45,287 nucleotides of DNA, taken from Pseudothauera rhizosphaerae (GTDB lineage Bacteria > Pseudomonadota > Gammaproteobacteria > Burkholderiales > Rhodocyclaceae). This document shows, one piece after another, positions 25,061 through 27,244 of the stretch. The stretch covers positions 1-45,287 of the forward strand of contig NZ_SSOD01000024.1 of assembly GCF_004801305.1 (NCBI RefSeq), given 5' to 3'. The position numbers were made by a program, and so were the translations under genes. Each line of letters opens with the position of its first letter. Positions within the stretch are counted from its first letter, which is position 1. Under the pieces are notes generated by a model that searched no databases, was not told the DNA's origin, and saw only the letters and a program-made list of their open reading frames with translations.

Positions 25061-25507
25061 ATGAGCACGATGACGGTTCGGCAGGTTCTGGACATCAAGG
25101 GCCACAAGGTCCATTGCGTGGCCCCGGGGGTCACCGTGTTCGAGGCGCTGGCACTGATGGCCGAATACAACATCGGCGCCGTGCTGGTGACCGACGGGGA
25201 ACGGCTGGTGGGCATCTTCACCGAGCGCGACTACGCCCGCAAGGTGGTGCTGAAAGGGCTGCGCTCGGCCGAGGTGAGTGTGGGCGACCTGATGACCCCC
25301 GCGCCGGCGACGGTCGGCCCCGAGCAGACCGTGGACGAGGTCATGAACATCATGACCGACAAGCGCTTCCGCCACCTGCCGGTGATGGAGAACGGCCGGC
25401 TCGCCGGCATCATCACCATCGGCGACGTGGTGAAGTCCATCATCGACCTGCAGCGCCGCACGATCTCCCACCTGTCGAACTACATCGCGGGCGACATTGC
25501 CACCTGA
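25061..25507 (+). CDS. CBS-pair domain protein
   Basis: The product has 148 residues made of two CBS motifs: HCVAPGVTVFEALALMAEYNIGAVLVTDGERLVGIFTERDYARKV, and SVGDLMTPAPATV with RHLPVMENGRLAGIITIGDVVKSII. CBS pairs bind adenosine nucleotides and regulate partners. The stand-alone form with an ERDY motif is common in Betaproteobacteria but has no assigned role. An AGGAGGAAGG ribosome binding site precedes the ATG, and a strong terminator follows the stop. Confidence 0.92.
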   Translation: MSTMTVRQVLDIKGHKVHCVAPGVTVFEALALMAEYNIGAVLVTDGERLVGIFTERDYARKVVLKGLRSAEVSVGDLMTPAPATVGPEQTVDEVMNIMTDKRFRHLPVMENGRLAGIITIGDVVKSIIDLQRRTISHLSNYIAGDIAT

Positions 25508-25529
25508 GCTTGCAGGCACTCATGCGCTG

Positions 25530-25557
25530 ACGCCAGCCCCGCGGGGGCTGGCGTTTT
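25530..25557 (+). terminator. Rho-independent terminator after the CBS gene
   Basis: The stem ACGCCAGCCCC / GGGGCTGGCGT (11 base pairs) with a GCG loop is followed by TTT. It lies 22 bases after the CBS-gene stop and ends the plus-strand block before the convergent gdx gene. Confidence 0.88.
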
Positions 25558-25589
25558 CATTGGCCTTCGACCCGCTCGGGCATTGCCGG

Positions 25590-25910
25590 TCACGCCGGCG
25601 TTGCGAGCTTGAGACCGACGATGCCCGTGACGATCAACCCGAGACTCAGCAGCCGTAGAAGATTCGCCGCTTCCCCCAGCAGGGCGATGCCGAGCACGGC
25701 CGTACCGACCGTTCCCACGCCCACCCAGATGGCGTAGGCGGTGCCCACCGGAAGGGATTTCATGGCGACGCCGAGCAGGCCGAGGCTGACGATCATCGCA
25801 AATACCGTTCCGGCCGTCGGCCAGGGACGGGTAAAACCCTCGGTATATTTGAGCCCGACTGCCCAGCCGATCTCGAACAGACCCGCAACGATGAGAATGA
25901 CCCAGTTCAT
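25590..25910 (-). CDS. gdx: Guanidinium exporter of the SMR family (Gdx/SugE)
   Basis: The product has 106 residues and four TM helices. The signature [19 protein letters not shown] carries the central Glu13 used for H+/substrate exchange and the W and K typical of the Gdx (guanidinium) subgroup rather than Emr[18 protein letters not shown] lies in helix 3. I chose the ATG at 25910 over the GTG at 25919 because it gives the standard family N-terminus and stands behind GAGAGG. A guanidine-II riboswitch-like structure precedes it, which supports guanidinium as substrate. Confidence 0.92.
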
Positions 25911-25931
25911 GATGAACACCTCTCGAACAGA

Positions 25932-25975
25932 CGGGGCCGTCCCCGATTGAAACGGAGAGGTGAGGTCGTCCTCAC
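25932..25975 (-). promoter_or_regulatory. Guanidine-II (mini-ykkC) riboswitch upstream of gdx
   Basis: On the minus strand two short hairpins stand in tandem: GTGAGG-ACGA-CCTCAC (25975 to 25960) and CGGGG-ACGG-CCCCG (25945 to 25932), joined by a 14-base linker. Two GC stems each capped by an ACGR tetraloop are the definition of the mini-ykkC / guanidine-II class, in which the loops kiss and each binds a guanidinium ion. The second stem ends 7 bases before the GAGAGG ribosome binding site of gdx, suggesting control of translation initiation. A GC-rich hairpin further upstream (25994-26021) may end the yceI transcript. Confidence 0.88.
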
Positions 25976-26041
25976 TTCCTGAGAGAGAGCCCGCCGCCGG
26001 ATGGGTGTCCCCGGCCGGCGGGCAGGTCCGCTGACGGAATC

Positions 26042-26623
26042 TTACTGCTGGATCGCTTCCACCGCGATGGACAGCGTCACCTCGTCGCTCACGTTGGGCG
26101 CGAATTTGCCCGCGTTGAACTCGGAACGCTTGATCTGCGCCACGGCGTTGGCGCCCAGCGCCGGCTTGCGCGCCATCGGGTGCGGCATCGAATGGAAGGA
26201 GGTCAGCGTCAGCGTGACCGGGCGGGTGACGCCCTTGATAGTCAGCTCGCCGTCGATGGCCACCGGCTTGTCGCCGTCGAAGCGCACCGCGGTGGACTTG
26301 TAGGTGATGGTCGGATGGTTGGCGGTATCGAGGAAATCCTCGCCCTGGATATGCTCGTCGAACAGCGCGTAGCCCGTATCCACCGAGGTGGTGTCTATGG
26401 TGATGTCCACCGCACCGGTGCGCGCTTCACGGTCCCACACGATGGTGCCCTTGGTGGTGTTGAAGCGATGGATCTGGTTCGAGAAGCCGAAATGGCTGTA
26501 CTCGAAGCGCGGGAAGGTATGCGTGTTGTCGATGACGTAGGTCTCGGGCGCAGCCAGGGCCGGCGCGGCGAGGGCGGCAGCGAGGGTGGCGGCGGAAGCG
26601 AACAGGGCGAATCGTTTGTTCAT
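26042..26623 (-). CDS. YceI family periplasmic protein (second of a tandem pair)
   Basis: The product has 193 residues. A signal peptide ([24 protein letters not shown]) is followed by the YceI lipocalin-like barrel: [61 protein letters not shown] and [20 protein letters not shown]. YceI proteins bind long isoprenoids or amphiphilic molecules in the periplasm. GAGGAGA precedes the ATG at 26623. It follows another YceI gene and a b561 gene on the same strand. Confidence 0.92.
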
Positions 26624-26658: not shown

Positions 26659-27228
26659 TCAGCGCGCGGCGGCGGCGACCACGTTGAAACGGACCTTGAC
26701 CTCGTCGGCGACCACGCCGACGTCGGACCACATGCCTTCGCCGATAGCGAAATCGAGGCGCTTGAGGGTGAACTCTCCCTCGAACACGCCGTTGCCGCCA
26801 TCCTCGCGGAAGGTGAAGGGTGCGGTGGCCGGCCGGGTGCGGCCCTTGATGGTGAGCTGGCCGGTGACCTCGAAGCGGTTGCCGCCCAGGGCCTTCACCG
26901 CGGTGGACTCGAAGGTGGCGCGCGGATGTTCCTTGACGTTGAACCACGCCTTGCCGACCACCTCGTCGTTGGCGTCCTTGGAGCCCGCATCGATGCTCGC
27001 CAGTTCGATCTCCAGGCGGGCGCGGCCCTGCTCCGGACTGGCGGGGTCGAACTGCAGGCTGGCGTCGAACTTGCCGAAGCTGCCGCCCACCTCCACGCCC
27101 ATCTGTTTGGACACGAAGCTCACGGCGCTGCGTTCGGCCAGCACCTGCCCGTAGTTCGCGGCCACGGCGCTGCCCGCAAAGGTGGCGAGGGACAGGGAAG
27201 CGAGCAGGACGGACAGGCTGCGGGTCAT
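26659..27228 (-). CDS. YceI family periplasmic protein (first of a tandem pair)
   Basis: The product has 189 residues from the ATG at 27228 (MTRSLSVLLASLSLATFAGSAVA signal peptide), which has GGAGA at the right spacing; an ATG at 27240 is also in frame. The barrel shows SAVSFVSKQMGVEVGGSFGKFDA, a DEVVGKAWFNVKEHPRATFES segment, GQLTIKGRTRPATAPFTF and SDVGVVADEVKVRF. It is clearly paralogous to the neighbour but distinct in sequence. It lies 16 bases after the b561 stop, so the three genes form one operon. Confidence 0.92.
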   Translation of the reverse strand: MTRSLSVLLASLSLATFAGSAVAANYGQVLAERSAVSFVSKQMGVEVGGSFGKFDASLQFDPASPEQGRARLEIELASIDAGSKDANDEVVGKAWFNVKEHPRATFESTAVKALGGNRFEVTGQLTIKGRTRPATAPFTFREDGGNGVFEGEFTLKRLDFAIGEGMWSDVGVVADEVKVRFNVVAAAAR

Positions 27229-27244
27229 CGGTTTCTCCATTCGA

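Follow-up and report, generated by a model that had tools for sequence, protein, structure and literature searches.

The window, a stretch of 45,287 nucleotides from Pseudothauera rhizosphaerae, carries on its minus strand a gdx (sugE) gene whose product is a predicted SMR guanidinium exporter of 106 aa. The gene spans positions 25590–25910, with an ATG at 25910–25908 and a TGA at 25592–25590, and is preceded by a full-length guanidine-II (mini-ykkC) riboswitch aptamer (RF01068) at 25932–25975. The aptamer can be read directly from the sequence as two hairpins separated by a linker, and both stems are also supported by covariation, as explained below. P1 occupies 25960–25975 and is a hairpin of 6 bp, GUGAGG-ACGA-CCUCAC, with the ACGA loop at 25969–25966. 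This is immediately followed by a linker of 14 nt (25946–25959), which falls inside the range of 7–40 nt given for guanidine-II RNAs in passages of PMC7544219, and by P2 (25932–25945), a hairpin of 5 bp, CGGGG-ACGG-CCCCG, with the ACGG loop at 25940–25937. Each of the two loops is closed by a G-C pair. An earlier, sequence-only reading of this DNA had described hairpins with these loops, joined by 14 nt and placed ahead of a ribosome binding site, and all of these elements are present as described.

The end of P2 and the ATG are 21 nt apart, and the Shine-Dalgarno (SD) region GAGAGGUG, again read directly, lies at 25917–25924. The exact complement of 25924–25917 is found at 25955–25962. This putative anti-SD, CACCUCUC, is composed of the last 3 nt of P1 and the first 5 nt of the linker. 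The mechanically called reading frame begins at a GTG at 25919, which is probably not the true start. Instead, the ATG at 25910 is favoured because the SugE models and the homologues align from there.

Upstream of the leader and on the same strand, there is a YceI-domain gene (PF04264) at 26659–27240, and a second frame, YceI-like by eye, ends at 26042, with 66 nt between its stop codon and P1. A GC-rich inverted repeat (25981–26023, minus strand), followed by TCTCTCTC, is located between this upstream gene and P1. A consensus scan of 25480–26200 returned no promoter-like site and no terminator, and the repeat at 25981–26023 was not called either. With regard to a possible transfer of gdx, the composition of the region is not odd, the GC content being 64% around gdx and 62–73% nearby, but the closest Gdx within the same genus is 47% identical and two of six genomes of that genus have the aptamer. 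In a plasmid search, 1210 of 72,556 records contained a match to the Gdx protein, in no case above 80% identity. Elsewhere in the host genome there is a second, weak SMR-like match (G000:C20:41629-41892, 23.4 bits).

Identity of the aptamer and the exporter

The sequence-only reading placed the RNA in the guanidine-II class and proposed a covariance search, which has now been run. Positions 25975–25932 of the minus strand match the curated Rfam model RF01068 with 45.4 bits against a gathering threshold of 32 (E = 6.1e-6), and the match is full length, covering model positions 1–48 of 48. When the window was compared with 4227 Rfam families using cmscan, this was the sole match at the gathering threshold. 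In addition, a search of the host genome (4.6 Mb, 45 contigs) with RF01068 at E ≤ 0.001 returned the site in the window only.

The same aptamer is present in two of six genomes of the host genus and, at E ≤ 0.001, in 55 of the 297 genomes sampled from the host's taxonomic family, 53 of them above the cut-off. There are 64 aptamer sites in the family (59 above the cut-off), and the genes downstream are of the SMR type at 41 sites, of the biotin-carboxylase type at 16 and of the PACE type at 5, with none recognised at the remaining 2. Here, SMR and carboxylase genes were classified by sequence motif and by eye, and PACE genes using Pfam. A further set consisted of named Gdx genes, namely the nearest 80 of at least 548 matches. 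An aptamer above the cut-off lies ahead of 38 of these 80 genes (11, 14, 8 and 5 of 20), with the motif positioned 13–31 nt ahead of the gene match, and the other 42 have no aptamer above the cut-off. A search for hairpin pairs at the same 80 loci produced 36 on the sense strands and 0 on the antisense strands.

The covariation analysis used 100 aptamers, which comprise 62 of the 64 family sites and the 38 from named Gdx loci; 95 of these are distinct and 94 were used, with pair counts anchored on the loops. The two remaining family sites, L070 and L071, had been set aside beforehand, as both score under the cut-off and lack a recognised gene, L070 also being without ACGR in P1; they were likewise left out of the anti-SD and accessibility tests described below. 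The sequence-only reading had named the loss of ACGR loops in close relatives, with unconserved stems, as one observation that would speak against it, and the opposite was found. ACGR is present in both loops of 94 of the 95 distinct aptamers, the single exception being L135, where the second loop is ACGC. Standard pairing occurs at pair 4 of P1 in 93 of the 94 aptamers, in GC, CG and AT forms (shuffled partners, mean 50.2, maximum 61), pair 5 of P1 is paired in 88 (shuffled mean 53.5), pair 4 of P2 in 92 (shuffled mean 49.4) and pair 5 of P2, which is loose, in 56 (shuffled mean 42.1), and these counts are not readable as probabilities because related sequences are not independent. The loop-proximal pairs are nearly invariant and so carry little covariation information. 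Overall, the guanidine-II stems are kept by covariation across 94 distinct aptamers.

Folding energy was considered as a proof of structure and, used alone, it is weak: the 101-nt leader has a z-score of -1.54, and 15 of 200 shuffles are as stable. While such an unremarkable value would suit hairpins that arose by chance, that explanation has to contend with the Rfam E-value of 6e-6, the covariation of the stems, the recurrence of the motif before gdx and the confinement of hairpin pairs to the sense strands of the named loci, and its probability is negligible. The structure is beyond chance because the loops, the stems and the position before the gene recur in relatives. The element in the window is a real and typical guanidine-II riboswitch ahead of a typical gdx gene.

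The identification of the gene as SMR/Gdx, also made in the sequence-only reading, is confirmed by curated models. The product scores 141.2 bits against the NCBIfam SugE equivalog NF008512, for which the cut-off is 126, and 98.8 bits against PF00893, whereas the EmrE and Qac models are far under their own cut-offs. The best PDB chain is 6wk5_B, which is presumably Gdx-Clo; its record title is that of an SMR-family multidrug resistance protein, and 103 residues align without gaps. The closest solved chains, 6wk5 and 8vxu, both outrank EmrE. All 41 aptamer-led SMR proteins of the taxonomic family, including the product of the gene in the window, have residues E13, W16, S42, Y59 and W62. The roles of these residues come from the Gdx-Clo study (PMC7695847), passages of which describe Trp16 as conserved in Gdx and as Gly or Ala in Qac. 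Both the ungapped alignment and the five residues are shared with the Gdx/SugE exporters, and the sequence reveals no functional difference from them.

The protein signature had been thought to leave the choice between SugE and EmrE ambiguous. This view does not hold, as the SugE equivalog cut-off is passed, the EmrE and Qac models fall far below theirs and Trp16 is present, making the protein family unambiguous without the RNA. It could be argued that the exporter is a multidrug pump of the Qac/EmrE type which carries the switch by happenstance, as the NCBIfam wording for the SugE family is quaternary ammonium efflux and QAC resistance phenotypes of Gdx proteins are described in portions of a review (PMC12186494). 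The same Trp16, which would be Gly or Ala in a Qac protein (PMC7695847), the greater closeness of 6wk5 and 8vxu among solved chains and the low EmrE and Qac scores make this very unlikely. The assignment to Gdx is retained, and the RNA class and the protein family agree with each other. The sequence-only reading went further, stating that the riboswitch names the substrate and shows a guanidine response in this organism. The class and the gene family stand; the substrate and the response are expectations drawn from the two families.

The pairing of this aptamer with this exporter is already known in bacteria and the window is an ordinary case. The leader resembles that of E. coli sugE/gdx: in each, a pair of short GC hairpins, one with an ACGA loop and one with an ACGG loop, is closely followed by an SD and the start codon of a gdx gene. 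In passages of PMC13064478, the E. coli leader is reported to contain the same two loops and a GGAG SD. Comparison of the two reveals nothing that breaks the class; in the window, the complement of the SD extends from the last nucleotides of P1 into the linker.

Probable translational control of gdx

It is highly probable that this ordinary guanidine-II riboswitch controls the translation of a Gdx guanidinium/proton antiporter, most likely as an ON switch and with anti-SD pairing as the likely device. The aptamer class, its conservation and covariation, the gene family, the diagnostic residues and the complementarity in the window leader are established directly. By analogy with the class, the ligand would be guanidinium, the hairpins would kiss, the control would be translational and in the ON direction, and the exporter would have guanidinium as its substrate. 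In the class model, as found in parts of PMC9094411 and of the review PMC12186494, guanidine-II is a translational ON switch with a putative anti-SD in the linker, and kissing of the hairpins on ligand binding frees the SD. Guanidine control of gdx is supported for the class by work in E. coli, where excerpts of PMC13064478 report that a deletion in the P2 region accompanies constitutive gdx expression and that the resistance conferred by gdx is enhanced by guanidinium.

When applied to the window, the mechanism would proceed as follows. Without guanidinium, CACCUCUC, made up of the P1 end and part of the linker, would pair with GAGAGGUG and keep the ribosome off. Binding of guanidinium to the ACGA and ACGG loops would stabilise P1 and P2, which would then kiss. 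P1 would thereby reclaim its own 3' end and leave the ribosome site free. Gdx would then be made and guanidinium pumped out of the cell.

The exact, 8-bp duplex between CACCUCUC and GAGAGGUG has a calculated energy of -14.3 kcal/mol. Such a value is rare by chance, as 7 of 2000 sequences attain it when the downstream side is shuffled and 29 of 2000 when the upstream side is shuffled. On average, the bases of the SD hexamer AGAGGU are unpaired with a probability of 0.014 in the free leader, which rises to 0.264 once P1 and P2 have been forced. Forcing the two hairpins in the window leader costs 6.7 kcal/mol and leaves five linker-SD pairs in place, in a model that includes neither ligand nor kissing.

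Co-evolution of the duplex between the P1 end/linker and the SD was examined in the 41 SMR leaders of the family, and there was none: the mean energy is -8.6 kcal/mol for own partners vs -9.2 kcal/mol for swapped partners, and 4687 of 5000 partner permutations were at least as low as the own pairing. Own-partner duplexes were somewhat better among the carboxylase leaders (16) and the PACE leaders (5), though not convincingly so (496 and 444 of 5000 permutations, respectively), in sets that include near-identical leaders. Averaged over 78 SMR leaders, access to the SD increases by a tiny amount, 0.026 vs -0.043 to 0.014 in 12 swaps. Access to the SD was raised in 23 of 41 plus 23 of 37 SMR leaders, 3 of 15 carboxylase leaders and 2 of 5 PACE leaders, and in the PACE leaders average access falls when P1 and P2 are forced. 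L135, with its ACGC second loop, and L007, which has 9 nt between the aptamer and the assigned start, were dropped from this accessibility test. As a family feature, a co-evolved anti-SD is thus unsupported over the 41 SMR leaders, and weak in the ensemble version.

These family-wide results bear on a different explanation, in which the aptamer and gene are as described but the ribosome site is governed by something other than linker-SD pairing, namely a different fold, mRNA decay or Rho. The missing co-evolution over 41 SMR leaders and the tiny mean gain in accessibility are what favour it, but the window leader itself contains an exact 8-bp anti-SD that is rare in shuffles, and the published class model, in the portions of PMC9094411 consulted, has an anti-SD in the linker. 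Control by such other means is unlikely, without being far-fetched. Anti-SD pairing is likely the device used in the window leader, and is not demonstrated as a feature of the family.

Guanidine handling in the host and in its relatives

The 16 of 64 family sites that precede biotin-carboxylase-type (guanidine/urea carboxylase) genes have the same aptamer as the window. In the host genome, a single sequence exceeds the urea-carboxylase cut-off, with a score of 1934 bits (G000:C15:53814-57419; L161 8812-12426). Unlike the riboswitch-led carboxylases, this sole full-length enzyme has no Rfam riboswitch at the gathering threshold in the surrounding 19 kb, and Asn occupies its aligned position 706, where all four guanidine-II-led enzymes of the family used in the comparison have Asp. 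This comparison was made without L167, a locus with no full frame, and 706 is the only N/D position with a clean split. According to passages of a review (PMC12186494), Asp is found in guanidine carboxylases and Asn in urea carboxylases, and position 706 is presumably this residue. The host's one full-length enzyme of this kind therefore looks urea-type, making export the likely main guanidine response of the host. Taken as a whole, the findings fix the annotation of the SMR gene in the window as that of a predicted guanidinium exporter. They also lead one to expect that the host responds to guanidine, with export as a likelier route than breakdown.

Five of the 64 family sites (L170 in G090, L171 in G036, L172 in G204, L173 in G094 and L174 in G031) lie directly before a PACE gene with two BTP domains (PF05232). 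The five genes score 135–144 bits vs 25.6 for the Pfam cut-off, and their aptamers score 30.9–40.4 bits, four being above the cut-off and that of G204 reaching 30.9 vs 32. In L179 (G181), a single aptamer (31.6 bits) is followed by gdx and then by a PACE gene, all three oriented alike (1510–2513). A wider set of 58 PACE loci was assembled from the 30 best of the family search and 28 more from an order-wide search. Eight of the 58, which are the six loci above together with those of G249 and G638 described below, have a coding-strand hairpin pair a short distance ahead of a PACE gene or of a gdx-PACE pair, and no hairpin pairs were found in 20 rounds of base-shuffled PACE loci. The link is that of a minority, as the other 50 loci, which include the PACE relative of the host genome (L198), have no such hairpin pair and PACE relatives are present in 110 of 297 genomes of the taxonomic family.

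A literature search for PACE, chlorhexidine or AceI together with guanidine riboswitches found no link in the titles and abstracts listed, although the link may have been recorded earlier, in the 2017 work defining the guanidine-II class. PMC12186494, PMC12335538 and PMC7736828, which deal with guanidine, and the riboswitch review PMC7266159 do not mention a PACE transporter or chlorhexidine, and the available portion of the PACE review PMC6195760 contains neither 'guanid' nor 'riboswitch'.

The chances are about even that, in the host's taxonomic family, guanidine-II RNAs control some PACE (BTP, PF05232) transporters, either directly or behind gdx; an inducer of these pumps, and probably a natural substrate of them, would then be guanidinium or a compound with a guanidino group. 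Chlorhexidine, the best-known PACE drug, is itself a biguanide, and work on diamines followed the 2018 review of these pumps. That review suggested that PACE pumps may have physiological substrates in common which still await description (PMC6195760). A guanidine riboswitch ahead of some PACE pumps offers a direct and testable candidate for such a substrate, and this observation matters more than the element in the window, which repeats a known pairing. Similar arrangements occur further afield: guanidine-II-like hairpin pairs, with ACGR loops by eye, precede PACE genes in a further genus (G249; L186 1986–2044, 25.7 bits) and in another taxonomic family (G638; L222 1458–1502, 26.7 bits), both scoring below the cut-off.
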